Position numbers and translations under genes: made by a program. The notes under the pieces are model-generated. The model was not told the DNA's origin. It saw only the letters and a program-made list of their open reading frames with translations, and searched no databases. From assembly GCF_027214005.1 (NCBI RefSeq), contig NZ_JAPWGY010000015.1, positions 1 to 35,628 of the forward strand: DNA of 35,628 nt. The letters run 5' to 3'. This DNA comes from Kiloniella laminariae. Its GTDB lineage: Bacteria; Pseudomonadota; Alphaproteobacteria; Kiloniellales; Kiloniellaceae. Of the stretch, positions 1,072 through 10,139 are shown in pieces; the first letter of the stretch is position 1, and the number at the start of each line of letters is the position of its first letter.

Positions 1072-2448
1072 CTAGCTTACCATCTCTTTGACCATCGCAT
1101 AAACAGCCCTCAGGCCAATGGCTTCCCCTCCTTCAGGTCGGCCGGGACGGGCTGACATGTTATAGGCCATGATATCAAAATGCGCCCAAGGGGTTTCTTT
1201 CTCAACAAATTCTGCGAGATAGAGCGCCGCTGTGATCGCCCCGGCATAGGGGCCACCTGAAACATTGTTCAGATCAGCAATTTTGCTGTCGAGCAATTTG
1301 CGATAGGGCTTATGCAAAGGCAGACGCCATATTTCATCGCCCTGCTCGACAGAATGCCTGCGGAGCCTGTCCGCCAGTTCATCGTCGTTACAGAACATCG
1401 CCCCAAGATCAGTTCCAAGCGCCACCCTGGCCGCTCCGGTCAAGGTGGCAAAATCCAGAATAAGATCAGGTTTGGTACGATCCGCCTCGGCCAGCGCGTC
1501 ACACAAGACCAGACGACCTTCAGCATCGGTATTGCCGACTTCCACCGTCAGCCCCTTGCGTGTTTTGATCACATCTGAAGGGCGGAAAGCATTTCCTGAC
1601 ACGGCATTCTCCACGGCAGGGATCAGGACCCGCAACTGGCAAGTCAGATTGCTCTGCATGATTGCCGCTGCCAGTCCCAGAACATGGGCTGCCCCCCCCA
1701 TATCCTTTTTCATCAACAGCATACCCGCTGCAGATTTCAGATCCAGTCCGCCCGTATCAAAACAGACACCCTTGCCGACCAGAGTAATCTTGGGTCCCTT
1801 GTCGCCCCATCTGAGATCAATCAGCCTCGGCGCCCGATCAGAGGCCATGCCAACGGTATAGATCGCAGGGTAATTTGCAGTAAGAAGATCTTCGCCGACA
1901 ATGACGTTGCACTCGGCTTCGTATTCACCCGCCAGTTGGGAGGCTGCCGTCGCAAGCTCTTCAGGTCCCATGTCGTTACTCGGTGTATTGATCAGATCCC
2001 GGGTGAGCTGTGCGCCAGATGCAAGGGACAACACCACTGTACGATCCGCCTTTTCTGGCCAGACCAGTGTGGCCTGTTCTCGTGTATCTTCCTTGTAGCG
2101 GGTGAAACGGTAACTGCCCAATGCCCAGCCCAAAGCAACAGCGCTGGCCTGTTCTTCAGCAAGCGAATCTGCAATTTGGTATGAACCCGCTGGCAGGCTT
2201 TCACTCAGCCCCGCCAAAGTCCAGATACCGGGATCTTCCTCATTCCCAAGACCGATAAAAACACACTCGATCTGTCCTGTAGCATTTGGCACAAGGCAGA
2301 AAGATCCTTCTTCTGCCAAAAATTTGCTCGCGCCAAGCCAGGACCCCACGAGTCCTTTTTCCGCTAGTTTACCTTCAAGAGCAGTCTTGTTGATAAAATG
2401 AAGAGATACAGTCTGCTTGTCAGAACTATCGATCAGCTGGAAACTCAT
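1072..2448 (-). CDS. Leucyl aminopeptidase, M17 family
   Basis: This 458-residue cytosolic metallopeptidase removes N-terminal residues from peptides using two divalent metal ions. All seven catalytic positions of E. coli PepA (numbering from memory) have counterparts with the right spacing: K226, D231 and K238 in GKGVCFDTGGLDLK, D249, and D308, E310 and R312 in NTDAEGRL. The N-terminal domain is divergent, as usual in this family. An upstream in-frame start at 2505 exists, but GAGAAGG lies seven bases before the ATG at 2448 and the residues added upstream look non-coding. It is not PepA proper by length (PepA is about 500 residues), so I give no symbol. No obvious operon partner. Confidence 0.95.
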   Translation of the reverse strand: MSFQLIDSSDKQTVSLHFINKTALEGKLAEKGLVGSWLGASKFLAEEGSFCLVPNATGQIECVFIGLGNEEDPGIWTLAGLSESLPAGSYQIADSLAEEQASAVALGWALGSYRFTRYKEDTREQATLVWPEKADRTVVLSLASGAQLTRDLINTPSNDMGPEELATAASQLAGEYEAECNVIVGEDLLTANYPAIYTVGMASDRAPRLIDLRWGDKGPKITLVGKGVCFDTGGLDLKSAAGMLLMKKDMGGAAHVLGLAAAIMQSNLTCQLRVLIPAVENAVSGNAFRPSDVIKTRKGLTVEVGNTDAEGRLVLCDALAEADRTKPDLILDFATLTGAARVALGTDLGAMFCNDDELADRLRRHSVEQGDEIWRLPLHKPYRKLLDSKIADLNNVSGGPYAGAITAALYLAEFVEKETPWAHFDIMAYNMSARPGRPEGGEAIGLRAVYAMVKEMVS

Positions 2449-2591
2449 TACGAACCTTCTCGGTATTGTCAGGTGAGGGGTAAATATACGGATAGATAAA
2501 AACAATCTTTTGAAAACAACGCCAGTCTATGCCAACTGCCTCCCGGTGAATAGGAAAATACACCCGGATATACGCGGCAAAAGGTCATCTC

Positions 2592-2655
2592 ATCCTGGTG
2601 AACACCAGGATTGCATCACACAGACTAACAGCTGTGTGGTCAAAAGAAAGACCAC
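2592..2655. other. Cluster of three small hairpins
   Basis: The 250-base gap between the aminopeptidase start and the TAXI gene end holds three tandem inverted repeats: ATCCTGGTG/CACCAGGAT (2592-2611, 2-base loop), CACACAG/CTGTGTG (about 2616-2638) and GTGGTC/GACCAC (about 2636-2655). The last two share bases and could be alternatives. The position downstream of the TAXI gene fits transcript 3'-end structure, but there is no clear run of U, so a standard terminator is not shown. Confidence 0.4.
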
Positions 2656-2698
2656 CGCAGGTCAACAAACGTGATGATAGTATATAAAGGAATGTTGT

Positions 2699-3853
2699 TT
2701 ACTCGGCAGCAGGGACGTCCGTTGCGGGAACATTATCCTCCCCTTTTAGCACCTCTGCTTCATTTTCCTCTGCTGCGACTTCGCCTTCCAGTGCTTCTGT
2801 CGCCTCTTCCACAGCACTATCATCCGCAATCATTCCGATCTCGCGATAGAAACGTTCCGCACCAGGATGCAAAGGCATTATCAGGCCATCAAGGGCTTTT
2901 TCGATCACGATCATATGCCCCAGTTCATGACCATCTCTAAGCTTTTTCTGCGTGCTCTCATGCCAGAGTGCTTTGGTAATACCGTAGACGAGCTCATCGT
3001 CCAGATCTTCACGCACCAGAAATTGTGCAGGGACCAACAAAGCAGGCGTGTTGGGAACATTACGATAGGTCCCCACCTCAATGACTCCTGCAGAAAAGAA
3101 GGGATAAATTTCCTGCAGCACATCAAGATCCACCTCGCTCAAGGACAGAAGAGTAATTCGACTTTGATCGGCCAACGCCTTGACCAGCCGGGCAGGGATT
3201 CCGGCAATGGTAAAGAAGCCATCAATATCACCCTTGAGCATTGCTTCGTAAGCTTCACTATCGTTCAGATACGAAAGATTCTCTTCTGCTATCCGCACCC
3301 CTCTGGTTTCAAGCAACAGCTGGGCTCCGGCATTTGACCCCGAGCCGACTGGGCCAAGGGAAACCTTCCGGTCATGAAGATCTTCGATCGAACGGATACC
3401 ACTGGTATTGCTGATAACCAGATGCATGGCTTCAGGATAAAGATTGGCAATACTGCGGATATTCCCAACAGCCCCCCGGGTTCGAAAGATATGCTCGCCC
3501 TTCAGAGCCCAGTAAACGACGTCAGCCTGAGCAAACCCGCCCTCAAGCAGCCCATCGGCTATCCCGTTTATATTGGCGACCGACCCTTCAGTTGCCACGC
3601 TGTTGGACAGCAGGCCACGAACACCGCAGTTGCCGCCTTTGTCGCAGTCCCTCGATCCGATAGGCTTACTGATGGAGTTGGCAATTATACCGCCAATGGG
3701 AAAGTAGTTCCCCACCGTCGCCCCGGTACCAATTCGGAAAATTGGTGTGTCCTGAGCCATGGACAGACTCGAAAACAACGACAATATCAGAATGGAAACA
3801 AATGCTTGTGGAACGTTTAACAGGGTACGAATAATTGAGGACGCCGCAGACAA
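2699..3853 (-). CDS. TAXI-family TRAP transporter solute-binding protein
   Basis: This 384-residue protein is a periplasmic binding protein of the TAXI branch of TRAP transporters. A signal peptide covers about residues 1-33 (hydrophobic FVSILILSLFSSLS then MAQ). The mature N-terminus IFRIGTGATVGNYFPIGG is the TAXI signature, and GPVGSGSNAGAQLLL matches the ligand loop of the family. The start is TTG, with AAAGG seven bases upstream; no ATG is available before residue 32. TAXI proteins normally work with a fused membrane subunit, but none is encoded nearby, so this is an orphan. The C-terminal tail of about 36 residues is highly acidic (rich in E, D, A and P) and probably disordered. The substrate is unknown; known TAXI ligands include glutamate-like acids and small organic acids. 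Confidence 0.88.
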   Translation of the reverse strand: MSAASSIIRTLLNVPQAFVSILILSLFSSLSMAQDTPIFRIGTGATVGNYFPIGGIIANSISKPIGSRDCDKGGNCGVRGLLSNSVATEGSVANINGIADGLLEGGFAQADVVYWALKGEHIFRTRGAVGNIRSIANLYPEAMHLVISNTSGIRSIEDLHDRKVSLGPVGSGSNAGAQLLLETRGVRIAEENLSYLNDSEAYEAMLKGDIDGFFTIAGIPARLVKALADQSRITLLSLSEVDLDVLQEIYPFFSAGVIEVGTYRNVPNTPALLVPAQFLVREDLDDELVYGITKALWHESTQKKLRDGHELGHMIVIEKALDGLIMPLHPGAERFYREIGMIADDSAVEEATEALEGEVAAEENEAEVLKGEDNVPATDVPAAE

Positions 3854-4083
3854 CGGACTGCCTTTCTCTACTTACAGGTAGGTCTCCGGGAAGCTTTCTT
3901 TATCCTAGGCCATAATAAGTTAAAAGTTAATTAGAACATTGAGCCCATTGAATATTTTTATCTGGAACTATTAACCCAGATCAAACTTCTGCTGCTCTTG
4001 TGTTTTAAATGACGCCTTAACTTTCAGACCTTCAACAAACGAAGGCATAATTCCCGACCTTTCACCCAGAAAGATCGCAAGAC

Positions 4084-4102
4084 AAAAAGGCGCCTCAAAG
4101 GC
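4084..4102 (-). terminator. Possible weak terminator after cbiO
   Basis: On the minus strand GCCT-TTG-AGGC forms a short 4-bp hairpin, followed a few bases later by five T. It lies just downstream of the last gene of the cobalt uptake operon. The stem is short, so this is tentative. I saw nothing else in the 280-base gap 3854-4133 apart from the AT-rich upstream region of the TAXI gene. Confidence 0.3.
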
Positions 4103-4133
4103 AAAAAAAAGGCAGGTACGACACTGGCAAAAC

Positions 4134-4820
4134 TCAAATTTCCAGAACAGTCGCCTTTTCTTCCGCAGCCTCGAAGAGACGGCCCTCGGAAAGTTCCACC
4201 TGTCGGGTTGCCACCCTGTTCAGGAAATGATGATTGTGCGACACGATAACCATTGCCAGGGGCAATTCTGTCAAAATCGCAATCAGCCGTTGCTTGGTTT
4301 CCCGGTCAAGATCATTGGTTGGCTCATCAAGTAAAAGAACATCCGGTTCCAAAGCCATCACGGTTGCCAGAGCAACCAGGCGCTTCTGTCCGCCAGAGAG
4401 CTTGTGGGTAATCCGGTGAGCCAGATCTTCCAGATGGAGTAGCGAAAGGGTCCGACCGACAATGTCCATCACTTCCTGATGCGATTTGCCGAGGTTCAGG
4501 GGGCCAAAGGCAAGATCTTCCGCCACAGTCGGGCAGAACAGCTGATCATCAGGATCCTGGAACACCAACCCGGCCCTGACGCGCACCTCGCGAAAGTCTT
4601 TCTCCTGCTGCCGCAGGGATCCAAAAGCTTCTATCTGTCCCTGATCCGGTTTTTCCAGTCCATTGATCAGCCGAAGCAACGTGCTTTTCCCTGCCCCGTT
4701 GCTGCCTGTCAGTGCGACTCTTTCCCCCGGGTGCAAATCAAAGCTCACCCCTTTGAGAACTTCCAGCCCCCCCGCATAGGAAAAATGCAAATCCCGTAAC
4801 GTGATCAGAGGTAGCGACAT
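4134..4820 (-). CDS. cbiO: ECF transporter ATPase CbiO (cobalt/nickel uptake)
   Basis: This is the ATP-hydrolysing subunit of an energy-coupling-factor transporter, at the inner face of the cytoplasmic membrane. The 228-residue ABC domain shows Walker A GSNGAGKST (39-47), the Q-loop FQDPDDQLF typical of CbiO/EcfA proteins, the signature LSGGQKR, Walker B VLLLDEP and the switch histidine in VSHNHHF. It is shorter than many CbiO proteins (270-280 residues), lacking a long C-terminal extension. Its ATG overlaps the cbiQ stop (TAATG), which implies translational coupling. It is the last gene of the riboswitch-led operon. The metal is inferred to be cobalt because a cobalamin riboswitch heads the operon; nickel cannot be excluded from this protein. 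Confidence 0.93.
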   Translation of the reverse strand: MSLPLITLRDLHFSYAGGLEVLKGVSFDLHPGERVALTGSNGAGKSTLLRLINGLEKPDQGQIEAFGSLRQQEKDFREVRVRAGLVFQDPDDQLFCPTVAEDLAFGPLNLGKSHQEVMDIVGRTLSLLHLEDLAHRITHKLSGGQKRLVALATVMALEPDVLLLDEPTNDLDRETKQRLIAILTELPLAMVIVSHNHHFLNRVATRQVELSEGRLFEAAEEKATVLEI

Positions 4821-5605
4821 TAAAGATATCCCACGGCCAGAAGCCCTAATAGTGTAACAGCCGAAACAACCGCAAATATCCGGTCACGAGGACCTGATTT
4901 CATCGTATCCAGGATATAGAAACGACCGTCAAATCCCCGGCATTTCATCGCCTCCATGATCCTGTCGGAACGTTCCAGGCTTCGCACCAGCATCATCCCG
5001 ACAAGATACCCGATGGAACGCAGCGTATGCAGATCCGTACGCGGGACGAACCCTCTGGCTTTCATCGCCATGCGCATGGTTTTGTATTCCTTATAGAACA
5101 CATCAATGTAGCGCACCGTGAAAAGGAAAAGATGAACCAGCTTGATCGGAATTTTTAGACGATAGAGCGCATGCCCCAGTACTGAAGGCTCCATGATCCC
5201 GATCAGAGCCATCAGGGAAAAGAGAATCGCATTGGCTTTTAAGCCGACTTCTGCTGCCCTGAACAACCCTTCCCTGCTCGCTTCCCAGCCCCAGAAAGAA
5301 AAGATCACTTCGCCTGGCATGGTGAAAGGCAGCGTCAGAACCAGCACCAGGATAAAGGAATCAACCACCACGACTTTACGCACCGTTGTCCAGATAGGCA
5401 GCCGGGCAAAGAGCGACAGGCCCAAACCGATTCCAAGGGCAAGGGTCAGGGCCATCATATCGTGCAAGGCAGAAACCACACAGGAAAAGAGAACGCAGAC
5501 AAGCAGCCGTACCCGGGGATCAAGACTCTGAAGGAATGCTTCCTGTGTCTGCTGGTGTTTGTCCAGTGTCCAGGACCTGGAAACTTCCCCGAGTACCTGT
5601 GTCAT
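4820..5605 (-). CDS. cbiQ: ECF transporter transmembrane subunit CbiQ
   Basis: This 261-residue membrane protein is the coupling (T) subunit that links the metal-binding CbiM to the ATPase. Four to six hydrophobic helices are visible, for example VCVLFSCVVSALHDMMALTLAL and the terminal segment IFAVVSAVTLLGLLAVGYL. The two coupling motifs of the family are recognisable: AMKARGF at about residue 180 and AMKCRGF at about 222 (the A-x-x-x-R-G type). It begins one base after the stop of the NikL-like gene and overlaps cbiO by one base, so all three are co-translated. Specificity follows the S component, CbiM. Confidence 0.93.
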   Translation of the reverse strand: MTQVLGEVSRSWTLDKHQQTQEAFLQSLDPRVRLLVCVLFSCVVSALHDMMALTLALGIGLGLSLFARLPIWTTVRKVVVVDSFILVLVLTLPFTMPGEVIFSFWGWEASREGLFRAAEVGLKANAILFSLMALIGIMEPSVLGHALYRLKIPIKLVHLFLFTVRYIDVFYKEYKTMRMAMKARGFVPRTDLHTLRSIGYLVGMMLVRSLERSDRIMEAMKCRGFDGRFYILDTMKSGPRDRIFAVVSAVTLLGLLAVGYL

Positions 5606-5606
5606 T

Positions 5607-6242
5607 CTATTGATCCTTCACAGGCTTGCGTCGACCGAGCAGGAAAGATGCAATACCAAAGATGCCGAGGATATACCCGATCCCCCCCAGGATGTCCTGA
5701 AAGCGGCGTTCTTCTTTAAAAAGGGCGAGTTCTTTACGCAATTTACTCACTTCCTTGCCAACAATACTTTTGAACAGCTCTTCATCCATCATCGTGCCTG
5801 CTGTAACAGAAGCAGACGCTGCAACCGGAGCCATCCCTGTATTCACAGTATCACCTGGCCCCTCGGTAACGATTTCATTTTCGAGGCTCTTTTCACCTTC
5901 CAGCGTCTCTGGAAGCTCATCGGCCGTGACAACAAAACTGGCAATATGACCAGCGCTGAGATCAGCACGGAAATGATGATCTACTCTTGTCGTGGTAACA
6001 AAGGTAAAAAAACCTTCTTCGTCCGTCGTGACCTCTCCCAGTTTGTTTCCCTCAACATCACTGACAATCACCAGAACATTTGCCGCCATATCCCCATTTG
6101 AAAAGCCGATTTCTCCCTCGATCTTGTTACCGTCGGGATAGGCCGCAGAAATTATCTTGTGGGCCCAGGCGGAACTGACTGTGGTTACCCCAAGGAAAAG
6201 GGCAAGACACAAACCAGACAATCTTGTTTTATCGAACGGCAT
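5607..6242 (-). CDS. CbiL/NikL-like periplasmic subunit of the metal ECF transporter
   Basis: This 211-residue protein has an N-terminal signal peptide ending SSAWA, so that the mature chain would begin with H28 (HKIISAAYPDG). A beta-sandwich of the carboxypeptidase regulatory-like type follows (residues 30-110; EGEIGFSNGDMAANVLVIV and a G-x-F-x-F strand). A C-terminal transmembrane helix, GIGYILGIFGIASFLLG, precedes a basic end (RRKPVKDQ). This is the layout of NikL/CbiL, which replaces CbiN in one class of nickel/cobalt importers. No separate CbiN is encoded. It overlaps cbiM by 14 bp. Mature N-terminal histidine is shared with both DUF4198 proteins here and may bind metal (inference). Confidence 0.8.
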   Translation of the reverse strand: MPFDKTRLSGLCLALFLGVTTVSSAWAHKIISAAYPDGNKIEGEIGFSNGDMAANVLVIVSDVEGNKLGEVTTDEEGFFTFVTTTRVDHHFRADLSAGHIASFVVTADELPETLEGEKSLENEIVTEGPGDTVNTGMAPVAASASVTAGTMMDEELFKSIVGKEVSKLRKELALFKEERRFQDILGGIGYILGIFGIASFLLGRRKPVKDQ

Positions 6243-7026
6243 GTAACAGCTCCGGTTTGACTTTGGTGATCAGTTGAATTGTTGCCGCCGTCAAAAGTCC
6301 TTCAACGGCCATGACAGGGAAGTGGGCGACAATGACAAATTCCGCAGCCTTGCCAAACTCTTCGCCAGACAGGGCAAGAGAGATCGCCACCATGACTGCA
6401 GTCAGGAAAATCGATAAAGATCCCCCAAGAAATCCCCAAAAACCGGCCACAGACAAGATCCCGCGCCGATAGAGAAAATAGCCATAGGCCATCACCCCAG
6501 AAAACAGGATCAGAGAAACGCTGTTAACGGTTACGCTCCAGCTGCCTCCCTCAACCTGATACAGTTGATAAAGGGCAAAGCCTGCCCAGATCGTAATCAG
6601 GAAAAACACAAGAAAAAGGCCATCCGCAACACGTTTGGCAAGCAGGTGTTTTTCTGCTGAAAGCCCCCAGCGGCAGAGGAAATACACCAGAAGGGCTGGC
6701 ACAGCGATGTTCACCGCATTCACCCCAAGGACAGTAAGCCCGCCAAAACCAAAAAAGACTGCCTGCAACAAAAGAGCCACAGCCAGAGCCGGGAAAGCGG
6801 CCCAGCCCAGAATGATCCCCAGCAAACCGTTCAGTATCAGATGAACCGACGAAAACCCGAGGGGAACGTGAATCAGCGACGCCACAAAAAACACCGCAGA
6901 GAGAACCCCGACGCGGGGCAGGTCTTCGGGTTCAAGTTTTTTAAGGCTATAGGCAACGCCGGAGGCGGCCAAAAGGCCGCCTCCGATCAGCACAGGGTTC
7001 GAAAGGGCACCATCAACAATATGCAT
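6229..7026 (-). CDS. cbiM: Cobalt/nickel ECF transporter S component CbiM
   Basis: This 265-residue integral membrane protein is the metal-binding component. It begins MHIVDGALSNPVLIGGG; the conserved N-terminal Met-His, left exposed without a signal peptide, provides metal ligands in known CbiM/NikM structures. About seven or eight hydrophobic helices follow. Conserved histidines of the family are seen in LIHVPLGFSSVHLILNGLLG and in the C-terminal AHFPVMAVEGLLTA. It lies 14 bases after the DUF4198 gene and overlaps the NikL-like gene. Cobalt is favoured over nickel because a cobalamin riboswitch leads the operon; the protein alone does not settle this. Confidence 0.93.
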   Translation of the reverse strand: MHIVDGALSNPVLIGGGLLAASGVAYSLKKLEPEDLPRVGVLSAVFFVASLIHVPLGFSSVHLILNGLLGIILGWAAFPALAVALLLQAVFFGFGGLTVLGVNAVNIAVPALLVYFLCRWGLSAEKHLLAKRVADGLFLVFFLITIWAGFALYQLYQVEGGSWSVTVNSVSLILFSGVMAYGYFLYRRGILSVAGFWGFLGGSLSIFLTAVMVAISLALSGEEFGKAAEFVIVAHFPVMAVEGLLTAATIQLITKVKPELLHAVR

Positions 7027-7040
7027 AGCGCGCTCTCTTT

Positions 7041-7829
7041 CTAGTCAATATCCCGGGCCTGGATCCAGATCACTGCATCCTGCGACAAAGTCTTGCCTTC
7101 ATATTCGCTGTCCGGGCCGGTACCCAGAGCAGCAATGCCCCAGAATCCGGCTTTGGGCACGCCAAAGGTAAACGTTCCGGAAGCATCAGCCCGAAGGGCA
7201 TGTGCCGGAGACGAAATCAGAGCCGTTTCCGAAAAGCGGTTTTTTTCCGGCTCTGCTGGAAAATTCATATATTCAATTTCGATTTCTGCAAAAGGTACCG
7301 GTTTGCCCTCGGACAGAACCACTCCGGAAAAAGTCCCCCCCGCAATAACGTTGTAGGGTTTACCAAGCGGGCGGATTTCAGTTTTCAGTCCCTGTTCACT
7401 GTCCCAGTCGGTAGGAAGATCCCCGACATTGATATAGGACTTGGTCAGCTGCTGGATATAGACATCTTCGCTGGCTTCGTAATAGGGAGTCGGCACCAGC
7501 ACAAACACACTGTCCCCGAGACCACGAAGTTTGAGTTCAGCCTCAAAGGCCTTGCCGGTGTTTTCGCTGCTGGTCCAGTTGATTTCCTTCAACTGTCCAA
7601 GCAGATCAGTCTTTTTACCCTTGTGAATGGAATAGAATTCCAGCGGCGCACCCATTTCCATCACATGGCCGGAATCCGCCGGATGGGTAAATGGCATTTT
7701 CAAAGTAACCACGCCGCCCTTTTCCAGCATGGTCTCCGGCGTAAAAAGCAGTTGAAAATGTGCCTGCGCTGCAGACGTTAAGACAGCCGTTCCGGCAACA
7801 AGCAGCCCGGCAAAGAAAACCTTGTTCAT
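7041..7829 (-). CDS. DUF4198 periplasmic protein (NikK-like), paralogue A
   Basis: This 262-residue protein is the first gene of the metal uptake operon. It has a clear signal peptide ending at AQA, so the mature protein starts with H24 (HFQLLF). Family hallmarks of DUF4198 are visible: FTHP (47-50), DLLGQL, P-x-PYYEA, IRPLGKPY, a FSG-containing strand followed by a beta-sandwich region (IEIEYMNFP), and the C-terminal GVPKAGFWGIAALG. Such proteins accompany nickel/cobalt ECF importers (NikK) and probably hold the metal in the periplasm, though the mechanism is not established. Start: ATG at 7829 with AAAGGG upstream. A divergent paralogue (about one-third identical by eye) is encoded at 9348-10139 under its own cobalamin riboswitch. 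Confidence 0.85.
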   Translation of the reverse strand: MNKVFFAGLLVAGTAVLTSAAQAHFQLLFTPETMLEKGGVVTLKMPFTHPADSGHVMEMGAPLEFYSIHKGKKTDLLGQLKEINWTSSENTGKAFEAELKLRGLGDSVFVLVPTPYYEASEDVYIQQLTKSYINVGDLPTDWDSEQGLKTEIRPLGKPYNVIAGGTFSGVVLSEGKPVPFAEIEIEYMNFPAEPEKNRFSETALISSPAHALRADASGTFTFGVPKAGFWGIAALGTGPDSEYEGKTLSQDAVIWIQARDID

Positions 7830-7849
7830 CTCGTTTCATACCCTTTAGT

Positions 7850-7876
7850 CCCCAGCAGCTCTGTAATCGGCTGGGG
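7850..7876 (-). promoter_or_regulatory. Hairpin before the DUF4198-A ribosome-binding site
   Basis: CCCCAGC and GCTGGGG pair across a 13-base loop, ending about 20 bases before the start codon and just ahead of the AAAGGG Shine-Dalgarno sequence. It may be part of the riboswitch expression platform; that role is inferred from position only. Confidence 0.4.
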
Positions 7877-7937
7877 ATAACGTTCCTGATTGAGTTGCTG
7901 GATGAAGGCTGACTTTGCAAGACATCCCGCCATCCAC

Positions 7938-7959
7938 AAAATGCCGGATCTTTCCGGCA
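7938..7959 (-). terminator. Candidate riboswitch-controlled terminator
   Basis: On the minus strand TGCCGGA-AAGA-TCCGGCA is a perfect 7-bp, GC-rich hairpin followed by TTTTG, within the leader between the cobalamin aptamer and the DUF4198-A gene. The U-tract is short (4), so termination would be modest. It could be the off-state terminator of the riboswitch. Confidence 0.4.
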
Positions 7960-8044
7960 ACTCTGCTTCGGCAACTCGGCTCAAAGGCACGCCACAAACG
8001 GATGTCCGCCCCGATGGTGCTCCCCGCCCTTCGGTTTCGTGACG

Positions 8045-8240
8045 TTATGCTGGCAGGTCTCCTGGCTCACGGGTCAACGCTCAATCATCAAACCTTCCCG
8101 GCCTATGGCCAGTGGTCATCGCTGACGAGAGCTCACCGTTTACAGTTGCGGGGGCAGCCACAGCTAAGAGTCCCCTGATGGGCAGACTCCTTCCGTGTTC
8201 CCTTTTAATCCCCAGGCGGCTTCACCCTTGGGGAACCAAA
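8045..8240 (-). ncRNA. Cobalamin riboswitch 1, upstream of the cobalt uptake operon
   Basis: The minus strand carries the classic cobalamin aptamer pieces in order: GATTAAAAGGGAACACGG, the core GGCTGCCCCCGCAACTGT, and the 3' B12 box AGCCAGGAGACCTGCC (8052-8067). The aptamer lies about 215 bases upstream of the DUF4198-A start. In this class binding of adenosylcobalamin lowers expression, so the cobalt uptake operon would be shut when B12 is plentiful. The leader after the aptamer has a candidate terminator (7938-7959) and a hairpin near the ribosome-binding site. The segment 8169-8190 is identical to riboswitch 2 at 9080-9101. Confidence 0.93.
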
Positions 8241-8250
8241 CATGCGGCGC

Positions 8251-8279
8251 AGTCTATGCGGGCAAGAAAAAAGTGGCAA
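8251..8279 (-). promoter_or_regulatory. Promoter of the cobalt uptake operon
   Basis: On the minus strand TTGCCA (5 of 6 to the sigma-70 -35 box) and TAGACT (4 of 6 to the -10 box) are separated by exactly 17 bases. Transcription would start near 8244, immediately before the cobalamin aptamer. Confidence 0.55.
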
Positions 8280-8318
8280 GCTTCAACAAGGAGTTCTTGG
8301 AAAATTATCAAAAATAAC

Positions 8319-8334
8319 CATACTACCCGGTATG
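8319..8334. promoter_or_regulatory. Candidate TetR operator
   Basis: CATAC and GTATG form an inverted repeat with a 6-base spacer, with a second nested dyad TACC/GGTA. It lies 30 bases upstream of the tetR start, over a possible -10 region (TTGGAA at 8297-8302 about 17 bases before ATACTA), and about 40 bases upstream of the divergent cobalt operon promoter. Binding by the adjacent TetR protein is inference. Confidence 0.4.
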
Positions 8335-8363
8335 CCTCTTTTCCAGAATAGTGACCTCGACAA

Positions 8364-8939
8364 ATGACTCCGTCCCTCCCAACCGCCAGCAGCCTGAGTT
8401 GGCTTGCAACAGCATTGGCCCTTCTCGCACAGGAAGGCCCCTGGTCTTTGACCATTGCCCGCCTTTGCAAGGAAATGAACCTGACAAAAGGCAGTTTTTA
8501 TCACCACTTCAAAGATCTGGAAGCATTCAAATTGGCCCTGCTCGCCTTCTGGGAAAAAGATTACACCAAGGATCTCTTTGAAGCCGTGAAAGATGTGGAA
8601 GATCCGGAAGCACAGTATGAGATGCTCTTCACCCTGGCTTTCGAGAAGGATTTTGCTGCTGATATCGCTATGCGAACATGGGCTCAATCTGATGCAGCCG
8701 TGCGTAGCTCGGTCGAGAAAATCGACAACATCCGTCTGGATCTTCTCTCGGGCATGTACGAGCGTGCTTCCAGTCTGACACCCGAAGCAGCCAGAAATTA
8801 TGCAGTTATTGACTATGCTGGTTATATCGGTTTCTACAGCCTCTTTCCCAAAGCCAACGATTCCTGGGCAAGAGACCTCGCCTCCATTCAGACCCGTGCC
8901 CTGCTCGCCGACAGCAAAAACACACGCGGCATCCTGTAA
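8364..8939 (+). CDS. TetR-family transcriptional regulator
   Basis: This 191-residue regulator has an N-terminal TetR helix-turn-helix at about residues 10-55: LAQEGPWSLTIARLCKEMNLTKGSFYHHFKDLEAF, with the diagnostic YHHF recognition-helix end. The rest is the helical ligand-binding and dimerisation domain, whose effector cannot be read. It is divergent from the riboswitch-controlled cobalt uptake operon and is followed by the second riboswitch-DUF4198 unit, so it may sense a metal or corrinoid-related condition, or simply share the intergenic space. The Shine-Dalgarno sequence is weak. A dyad at 8319-8334 is a candidate self-operator. Confidence 0.88.
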   Translation: MTPSLPTASSLSWLATALALLAQEGPWSLTIARLCKEMNLTKGSFYHHFKDLEAFKLALLAFWEKDYTKDLFEAVKDVEDPEAQYEMLFTLAFEKDFAADIAMRTWAQSDAAVRSSVEKIDNIRLDLLSGMYERASSLTPEAARNYAVIDYAGYIGFYSLFPKANDSWARDLASIQTRALLADSKNTRGIL

Positions 8940-8992
8940 ACCTATAATAAATCTTCTTGCCGCTCTGGCGCGATCGGCCTGGAAAATCCCGC

Positions 8993-9021
8993 TTGACCCC
9001 CACCCCTTATCTCAGCAAACT
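8993..9021 (+). promoter_or_regulatory. Possible promoter for riboswitch 2
   Basis: TTGACC (5 of 6) is followed 17 bases later by CAAACT (3 of 6). This would start transcription near 9028, just before the second cobalamin aptamer. The -10 box is weak, and read-through from tetR is an alternative. Confidence 0.35.
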
Positions 9022-9029
9022 GCGCCCGT

Positions 9030-9222
9030 GTCGGTTAACCGGGCATAAATTCAGTCCGGTGATTAAAAGGGAATACGGAGGAGTCTGCCCATCAGGGGAC
9101 TTTTAGCCGGAACTGCCCCCGCAACTGTGTTCAGTCGGGTAACCTCAGGATATCAGAACATCTGCTGTCCAGTGTGCTTTCTCGAACTGTCAGTCAGGAA
9201 ACCTGCCGTCATAACGTCACCA
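9030..9222 (+). ncRNA. Cobalamin riboswitch 2, upstream of DUF4198 paralogue B
   Basis: The plus strand repeats the cobalamin aptamer pieces: CCGGTGATTAAAAGGGAAT, the core CTGCCCCCGCAACTGT, and the B12 box AGTCAGGAAACCTGCC (9192-9207). It controls a single gene, starting 140 bases after the B12 box. Its segment 9080-9101 is identical to 8169-8190 of riboswitch 1, the flank CATAACGTCAC after the B12 box is also shared, and GGGGCGGAC lies 40 bases after the box in both leaders. These point to a common, fairly recent origin of the two leaders. Confidence 0.92.
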
Positions 9223-9224
9223 GT

Positions 9225-9295
9225 CCAATGAACGGGGTCTTTCATTGGGGCGGACCTTCCGTCGTGTGGCGTGCCTGTCGTTTGGCAGGGACGCC
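9225..9295 (+). promoter_or_regulatory. Leader hairpins after riboswitch 2
   Basis: Two hairpins follow the aptamer: CCAATGAA/TTCATTGG (9225-9248, 8-base loop, perfect) and a longer imperfect one between GGCGT at 9268 and ACGCC at 9291 with an inner TGCC/GGCA. There is no U-tract after them, so control is more likely at translation than by termination. The exact switch structure was not folded. Confidence 0.4.
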
Positions 9296-9347
9296 GGTAA
9301 AGTGCGTTTCTGTCGTTCTAGTAAACCTTTTTGACAGAGCGCGAACC

Positions 9348-10139
9348 ATGTTTTTTTCACGACACCTCCTCCTGCTCCTTGCCGGATTTTCGGGAATTAT
9401 TTCCCCAGCCAGTGCCCATTTCCTGGAACTTGTACCTTCAACCGCCCTCGTCACCAAAAGCGGGGAAAGTCGTCTATCCTTTGACATTCGCTTTACCCAC
9501 CCTATGGAAGGCGGGCCTTTGATGAACATCGAGCGCCTCGACCGCTTTGGTGTACAAACTGTAGACGGGAAACATGATCTGACCGGGCAGCTCATCGTAG
9601 AGACCCTGCCAATGGCCTTAAATCCTGCCAGAGTGCAAAGCTACACCGCCGACTACAGCATTCGTCGAGCCGGAGACTATACCTTTTACGCCAGTCCCTC
9701 TCCCTACTGGGAAGCAGAAGAAAAAACCATGATCATCCATCACACCAAGGTGGTTGTGAATGCCTATGGTTTGGAAAATGGCTGGGAAACACCCGTCGGG
9801 CTTCCTGTAGAGATCATGCCTCTCAGCCGTCCCTACGGGTTATGGACAGGCAACATCTTCTCGGGACAAGTCATGAATAACGGAACTCCCGAAGGGGATG
9901 CGATTATCGAAATCGAATACCGTGGAGAAGGAAAAATCACTCCCCTTGCGACGCCGTACATTACCCAGACGATCCGAACGGATGAGAATGGCGTTTTTCA
10001 TTACGCCATGCCCAAAGCCGGCTGGTGGGTTTTTGCGGCTCTGCTCGACACAGGAAAAACCCTTCCTGCTCCTGACGGAACTGAAGCGCCTGTTGAAGAA
10101 GGCGGTCTGATCTGGGTTCACACCCAGAACATGCCCTGA
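9348..10139 (+). CDS. DUF4198 periplasmic protein (NikK-like), paralogue B
   Basis: This 263-residue secreted protein resembles paralogue A: signal peptide ending ASA, mature N-terminus H24 (HFLELV), FTHP (49-52), DLTGQL, P-x-PYWEAEE, VEIMPLSRPYG, IFSGQV, IIEIEY and MPKAGWWVFAAL. The reading frame is open back to 9174, but that extension crosses the riboswitch and its leader; the ATG at 9348, directly followed by the signal peptide, is the true start. It has its own cobalamin riboswitch and no transporter gene beside it, so it is a monocistronic cobalamin-repressed protein. A periplasmic cobalt- or corrinoid-handling role is inferred from regulation and family. Confidence 0.85.
   Translation: MFFSRHLLLLLAGFSGIISPASAHFLELVPSTALVTKSGESRLSFDIRFTHPMEGGPLMNIERLDRFGVQTVDGKHDLTGQLIVETLPMALNPARVQSYTADYSIRRAGDYTFYASPSPYWEAEEKTMIIHHTKVVVNAYGLENGWETPVGLPVEIMPLSRPYGLWTGNIFSGQVMNNGTPEGDAIIEIEYRGEGKITPLATPYITQTIRTDENGVFHYAMPKAGWWVFAALLDTGKTLPAPDGTEAPVEEGGLIWVHTQNMP

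Follow-up and report, generated by a model that had tools for sequence, protein, structure and literature searches.

The closest described relatives of the locus examined here are the NikK1-M-L1-Q-O cobalt operons. According to the accessible part of the account of these operons (PMC2667541), they lie near B12 genes or B12 riboswitches in five proteobacteria, two distantly related NikK proteins can be encoded in one organism, and orphan NikK proteins occur without NikMQO. The window analyzed here is the whole of a 35,628-nt contig (C6; NZ_JAPWGY010000015.1) from the genome (4.38 Mb in 61 contigs) of a marine Kiloniella. Its minus strand carries an operon like these, in which a DUF4198 protein (NikK) is encoded together with the M, L, Q, and O subunits of an energy-coupling factor (ECF) cobalt importer. 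A second NikK-type gene, the solo DUF4198 gene, has its own leader on its own strand and hence lies outside the NikKMLQO operon. Each DUF4198 gene follows a cobalamin riboswitch, in leader A (operon-type) or leader B (solo-type). The accessible part of the earlier account mentions neither a second, separately riboswitched NikK nor leaders with a shared core. The orphan NikK proteins also stand outside an operon, but their hosts lack NikMQO while in Kiloniella the importer is adjacent. The core-only homogenization of two riboswitches and the stand-alone riboswitched NikK are new here. A search of the open-access literature, covering titles and the beginnings of abstracts with subscription papers mostly outside it, returned no case of a riboswitch with gene conversion, concerted evolution, or duplication, and none of a cobalamin riboswitch together with DUF4198. 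With moderate confidence, we favor a reading in which the leader was copied, its core was kept alike by conversion, and a second periplasmic cobalt-binding NikK stands under a B12 riboswitch.

A preliminary description of the window had proposed two cobalamin riboswitches in mirror image, each leading a DUF4198 gene, and had suggested a covariance-model search as a check. In that search both leaders pass the Rfam gathering threshold of 31.5 bits for RF00174, and they are the sole matches above it in the window (Table 1). Both proteins belong to DUF4198 (170.7 and 165.9 bits against a cutoff of 34), their identity of 31% over 263 BLASTP columns agrees with the third estimated by eye, and the expected TetR gene lies between the modules. 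The riboswitch leaders are inverted repeats around this gene with about 860 bp separating their cores. As had been described, a 22-nt segment is identical on the opposite strands (23 nt counting one extra base), CATAACGTCAC directly follows both B12 boxes, and GGGGCGGAC begins 40 nt past each box (8012-8004 on the minus strand and 9247-9255 on the plus strand), followed by GGCGTGCC.

We found 122 relatives of the solo protein and kept 80 loci. Seven of them (L011 to L017), all from Kiloniella or one Rhodospirillales metagenome-assembled genome, retain both riboswitches, the operon DUF4198 gene, the solo gene, and a neighbor with a CBS domain. Importer genes are visible in six of the seven; the L013 contig ends after the DUF4198 gene. 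Rfam, run on 14 of the 80 loci (L011 to L024), gave two cobalamin matches in each of L011 to L017 and none in L018 to L024. The remaining 66 were covered by motif scan only. Across all 80 loci, the scan found a clear B12 box with a core only in L011 to L017; one weak pair each in L050 and L063 looks like chance. DUF4198 is encoded in nine of the 61 genomes of the order, namely eight of the nine Kiloniella genomes (the ninth being 77% complete) and G035, and in 56 of 385 sampled genomes of the class. Among named relatives, that of Kiloniella laminariae matches the solo protein best (89%). Against that species, dN and dS are 0.047 and 0.89 for the solo gene, 0.032 and 0.90 for the operon DUF4198 gene, and 0.047 and 0.82 for tetR.

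The paired leaders of these eight genomes support concerted evolution of the A/B core, in which the flanks mostly do not share. In an alignment of all A and B leaders, we compared the number of own-species A/B mismatches with all 40,320 species reassignments. Over the 71-column core the 52 own-species mismatches are the minimum (mean 78.6, P = 9.9e-5). The minimum is again observed, with 32 mismatches, in the six species left when the window and L011 are removed (mean 40.5, P = 0.0056), and the five closest species give P = 0.033. The P value is 0.84 for the 5′ part of the leader and 0.89 for the box and platform, while the P6 arm gives 0.015 for eight species and 0.23 inside the five-species clade. 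Homogenization of the leaders, one of the origins suggested earlier, is thus supported for the core of about 70 nt and not for the 5′ part or the box and platform. The species-matched changes center on the L5 hairpin, of which the identical 22-nt segment is a part. Both copies in the window and in L011 have AGTCTGCCC...GGGGACT where GAT types are found elsewhere, both L016 copies have ATTTACC, and the T and A of L015 are likewise in both of its copies. Exact identity between own-species A and B extends over 66 nt in L012, 65 in L016, 53 in L014, 34 in L017, 27 in L011, 26 in L013, 23 in the window, and 17 in L015.

Gene conversion between the inverted repeats would be the simplest cause of this likeness. 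Alternatively, A and B may have changed in parallel with no conversion, their L5 hairpins and ligand cores being under the same structural constraint, and the core is indeed the most constrained part of the leader. When independent evolution was simulated with site rates shared and the species tree set by hand, the observed statistic was nevertheless reached in none of 14,000 runs, and with linked base pairs in one of 6,000. Four columns with identical variable patterns were reached in 0 to 0.9% of simulated runs. In addition, the L004 riboswitch leader of the window's own genome retains the GATC type. We therefore regard parallel change as unlikely, although several observations weigh on its side and against conversion. 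Approximately unbiased (AU) tests on the core alone reject neither an all-A nor an all-B clade (p = 0.20 and 0.23). Ranked by core mismatches, only three of the eight A leaders have their own B nearest, and five of the eight B leaders their own A; ranked by the length of the exact match, the own B comes first in its row in four of eight, one of them a tie. As the own partner is often not the nearest, part of the signal is clade-level change with no fresh copy per species. Tested against an unlinked riboswitch family of all eight genomes, the A core gives P = 0.92, but the B core is borderline (P = 0.054). All post-core columns taken together also give an A-B signal (P = 0.0097), which is driven by P6-arm lengths. 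Joint change could further be forced by a trans-acting RNA or protein that recognizes this hairpin in A as well as B, and the species-matched changes do center on L5. This is highly improbable, given that the L003 and L004 leaders of the same genome carry related yet different versions of the hairpin segment and do not follow the same variants.

A leader tree in which the two riboswitches are no closer to each other than to those of other species had been named in the preliminary description as grounds for dropping its proposal. The outcome is a mosaic. The flanks group by orthologue and split A from B (96/99, a rough bootstrap with two long outgroup branches), and on the flank tree joining A and B of the window and L011 is rejected (p = 0.003). 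The core joins precisely these A and B leaders (82/77, not starred).

Outside the core, leaders A and B are, judging by their sequences, copies of one ancestral leader. When the region after the box was compared, the top three scores for each of three A queries were the B leaders of the window, L011, and L015. With the window's A leader as query these had z scores of 13.0, 12.7, and 12.4, and the five other B leaders 5.2 to 6.7, while no other riboswitch exceeded 3.1. For the A leaders of L012 and L015, the L003-type leaders (z of 4.9 to 6.7) overlap the remaining B leaders. A three-way junction after the box is predicted in both leaders, and CATAACGTCAC, GGGGCGGAC, and GGCGTGCC are pieces of it. 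All seven pairs of its outer stem (ACGTCAC/GTGRCGT) are possible in 16 of 16 leaders, and the minimum-energy fold has at least five of the seven in 15, with the B leader of L011 folding otherwise. Counting against the junction, the outer stem shows one-sided changes only, so covariation gives no proof of it. Among the eight genomes, exact CATAACGTCAC is found in two operon-type and three solo-type leaders, exact GGGGCGGAC in one and two, and exact GGCGTGCC in eight and four. Much of the exact likeness is thus particular to the window species and K. laminariae, and GGGGCGGAC was rejected as an old shared motif. In the window, GGGGCGGAC has an 8-bp partner, GTCTGCCC, within the L5 segment of its own leader (9247-9255 and 8004-8012 for the two GGGGCGGAC copies). 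The L5:GGGGCGGAC complementarity of 8 bp stands out from shuffles in window A, window B, and the B leader of L011 (P = 0.006, 0.012, and 0.01), with 0.06 for the A leader of L011 and 0.38 to 0.96 for the 12 leaders of the six other species. An L5:GGGGCGGAC kissing helix was rejected as a conserved feature, the pairing being unclear in the six other species. By eye, the GGGG loop of the first hairpin looks more usual as L13.

The genes behind the leaders have a different history. Our protein tree comprises 123 DUF4198 proteins (of 125 extracted, with L062 and L161 left out; short search, support by SH-aLRT only). The Kiloniella operon copies and six rows from alphaproteobacteria group together with a support of 99; the motif scan found a riboswitch for five of these six (L150, L155, L157, L159, L160) and none for L154. 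Next outward, again at 99, come L156, with no riboswitch seen by motif scan, and L153, which has one. The operon-type group numbers 16 rows, and the solo copies are a 100-supported lineage of their own outside it. With 33 rows from outside Kiloniella (L018 to L153) the solo protein shares 40-53% identity, but with operon-type rows, including Kiloniella's own, 31-34%. These separate lineages imply that the two DUF4198 genes do not come from local duplication. Local duplication of the whole module, leader and DUF4198 gene together, with later divergence of the proteins and conservation of the leaders, would account for the copied leaders and the head-to-head arrangement. It is contradicted by the protein tree, where the 16-row alphaproteobacterial group excludes the solo lineage, and by the identities above, and we consider it very unlikely. 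The duplication first suggested for the modules is accordingly retained for the leaders, by the post-box z scores in which B leaders are best, and dropped for the genes.

The P8-P12 arm motif, by which class I is recognized, is in all eight A leaders. Five of the eight B leaders, that of K. majae included, also keep the arm, and it is absent from leader B of the window, L011, and L015, whose Rfam scores are 57.2, 60.0, and 72.0 against 88.9 to 97.6 for the armed B leaders. Leader B has thus lost the class-I arm in the window's lineage. In the accessible part of its description (PMC11260477), the ppe2 switch is placed outside class I with the absence of P8-P12 as one reason. The window's leader B shares the B12 box, GGAA at J3/4, and L5 with the B12 riboswitch classes and lacks P8-P12 as ppe2 does, but among the eight orthologues five still carry the arm. 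We tentatively propose that the inverted riboswitch pair has one shared sensor domain, with the core held in common by conversion and the arms and platforms free, and that the armless B of the window may read another corrinoid. If true, a copied riboswitch can front an unrelated gene yet stay locked to the ligand response of its parent, and a transition from class I to a class-II-like form has been caught inside one genus. How riboswitches reach new genes and remain tuned is little documented. Core sharing, the loss of the arm, and selectivity for corrinoids can be tested directly in the orthologous pairs of the eight genomes, which include some with and some without the P8-P12 arm and an intact tetR.

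The solo protein had been described as a cobalamin-repressed protein without a transporter that has a separate periplasmic task. Its transcript does lack a transporter, but the locus does not, with the ECF operon about 2 kb off behind the same riboswitch class. For a separate task there is no specific support; family, fold, and regulation point to cobalt or nickel binding. In the alignment for structure, which used 47 of the 125 extracted proteins, His1 and His28 (in FTHP) are found in 47 of 47 rows, the conservation of His1 being partly by construction because rows were trimmed to begin at the His following the signal-like stretch. A search of solved structures by sequence with the solo protein alone gave nothing beyond one match with an E value of 0.84. 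Its AlphaFold model (mean pLDDT in Table 1) matches the fold of Zcp with zinc (9mhl, E = 2.1e-14) or cobalt (9mhn, 2.6e-14) and of a nickel-bound DUF4198 protein (9gcb, 3.6e-7). Zcp, the best fold match, was solved with zinc, cobalt, or copper (9mhi to 9mho). It is 16-17% identical to the solo protein, and a triple mutant of H29, H31, and H142 is named in an entry title. The DUF4198 protein of Ideonella sakaiensis binds nickel by His1 and His18 with a Kd of 18 nM, according to the accessible part of its report (PMC12537917). Structure 9gcb from that report, named NikK in the Protein Data Bank (PDB), and the solo protein have in common the DUF4198 fold, a mature His1, and a His before Pro. This second His is His18 in GHP in 9gcb and His28 in THP here, equivalent by motif and place only. 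The two are 14% identical in the fold alignment.

Because DUF4198/NikK is known as a periplasmic metal-binding family and both candidate ligands are preserved in the solo protein, it more probably serves the importer as a second partner that binds cobalt than performs an unrelated task. Cobalt also appears the more probable metal, with CobN encoded in all nine Kiloniella genomes and a NiFe hydrogenase reaching the cutoff in none of the nine (Ni-SOD was not searched for). Some observations count against this. A profile comparison of NikK-type with 9gcb-like proteins aligned just 50 columns of the C-terminal half, without the His sites. Urease-alpha matches occur in four of the nine genomes, three of them over the cutoff (best 26.9 bits against 23, over about 50 of 121 positions); we read them as other amidohydrolases. 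The solo relatives of other phyla sit in nik-type operons, which keeps nickel a candidate. It is possible, though in our view doubtful, that the solo protein has a task of its own: it may handle corrinoids, bind zinc or nickel, or deliver to CbtAB or a receptor in the outer membrane and not to the ECF importer. Its own leader and separate lineage would fit this, as would the CbtA gene behind another cobalamin riboswitch of the window's genome and the orphan NikK without NikMQO in the accessible part of PMC2667541. Against it, the solo gene shares its locus and riboswitch class with the importer in all eight genomes that have it. Searching with the solo protein gave 73 loci outside Kiloniella. 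By tblastn, one or more of CbiM, NikL, CbiQ, and CbiO lie nearby in 63 of them and none in the other ten, some of which are on cut contigs.

Under the reading we favor, the Kiloniella lineage has a cobalt ECF importer (DUF4198-cbiM-nikL-cbiQ-cbiO) and an adjacent NikK-type DUF4198 gene of different descent. Gene conversion would have copied the ligand-binding core and L5 hairpin from leader to leader, at the level of the clade and probably once more inside species. Both leaders would keep the same core because it was copied between them, as P1-P2, the P6 arm, and the expression platform diverged. B12 would repress both transcripts; at low B12 both leaders would be expected to permit expression of the importer and two periplasmic proteins. 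Both proteins may then hold Co(II) by two histidines, one at the mature N terminus and one in FTHP, and present it to CbiM/NikL. A stand-alone riboswitched NikK would connect the supply of cobalt for B12 with a metal-binding family of known structure.

Table 1. Positions of the riboswitches, genes, and related elements in the window
Feature	Position	Strand	Basis
Riboswitch A, cobalamin aptamer with P8-P12 arm; leads the DUF4198/ECF cobalt operon	8035..8256	-	RF00174 105.7 bits; arm motif
Riboswitch B, cobalamin aptamer, P8-P12 arm (CCACTGG...GGGAAGG) missing; leads the solo DUF4198 gene	9015..9224	+	RF00174 57.2 bits; alignment, folds
Core of leader A (J3/4 GGGAA, P4/L5 hairpin, J6/3), evolves in concert with B	8136..8206	-	permutation and simulation tests
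Core of leader B, counterpart of 8136-8206	9065..9134	+	permutation and simulation tests
Identical 22-nt segment (L5 hairpin), copy A	8169..8190	-	
Identical 22-nt segment (L5 hairpin), copy B	9080..9101	+	
Predicted post-box three-way junction, leader A; outer stem ACGTCAC/GTGGCGT enclosing two hairpins	7989..8045	-	predicted folds, pair counts
Predicted post-box three-way junction, leader B; architecture as in A	9214..9272	+	predicted folds, pair counts
First gene of the cobalt ECF operon, DUF4198 (NikK-type)	7041..7829	-	PF10670 1.8e-48; tree
cbiM (S component)	6229..7026	-	PF01891 1.2e-51
nikL-family subunit	5607..6242	-	NF058648 171.3 bits vs 100
cbiQ (T component)	4820..5605	-	TIGR02454 126.4 bits vs 111.8
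cbiO-like ATPase	4134..4820	-	PF00005; TIGR01166 185.7 bits, under cutoff of 211.8
Palindrome CATACtacccgGTATG, where the TetR-type regulator may bind	8319..8334	.	place kept in 7/8 loci
TetR-type regulator	8364..8939	+	PF00440 33.4 bits
Solo DUF4198 gene (NikK-type); His1 of the mature protein follows the signal peptide, His28 lies in FTHP	9348..10139	+	PF10670 5.9e-50; model pLDDT 93.4

For the solo gene we take the ATG at 9348 as the probable start, because the product, judged by eye, then has a signal peptide; the GTG at 9174, the mechanical start of the open reading frame (ORF), falls inside riboswitch B. Seven of the eight loci, all but L012, have a palindrome, CATAC(T)N4-6(A)GTATG, in the spacer that separates tetR from the operon. 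CATACtacccgGTATG is the sole match with at most one mismatch in the window's genome, but as a reversed control pattern has three, the evidence for the palindrome is its conserved place and not its rarity. Within the window alone it is not significant, with 36 of 100 shuffles containing one. The palindrome suggests that TetR may regulate itself and influence the operon promoter. In L012 (Kiloniella sp. EL199) tetR is truncated with internal stops (4264-4568), and both riboswitches and both DUF4198 genes remain. TetR was rejected as a shared regulator of the two DUF4198 genes: the palindrome was seen nowhere but in the tetR-operon spacer, and in L012, where tetR is broken, both genes persist behind their riboswitches. 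In L013 (K. spongiae), two ORFs are inserted between tetR and leader B (1987-4528), by eye a permease (2053-3015, minus strand) and a GntR/aminotransferase-type regulator (3097-4491, plus strand).

Including A and B, the window's genome carries seven cobalamin riboswitches. The L003 riboswitch precedes an ABC ATPase and then, by eye, a likely periplasmic binding protein; L004 precedes CbtA (PF09490), and L001 an ORF without a Pfam match followed by a MatE protein. L006 precedes a nitroreductase-family protein that we take to be BluB. The L005 riboswitch (contig C33) precedes a Rieske-type ring hydroxylase, the gene being checked in the window's genome only, and L005-like leaders are present in six of the nine Kiloniella genomes. 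The genome encodes three DUF4198 proteins. The third (L010, contig C54; 1414-2130 and 2226-3443, both on the minus strand) adjoins a CobW-family GTPase, is of the His1, His18 type, and has profile matches to 9gcb and Zcp. Another pair of cobalamin riboswitches of one family is found on contig C55 of genome G047, where L117 (19138-19367) and L168 (20818-21036) lie on the same strand about 1.5 kb apart. Between them are a minus-strand ORF of 125 aa and a plus-strand ORF of 227 aa, and L168 leads an ORF that by eye is ABC-ATPase-like.

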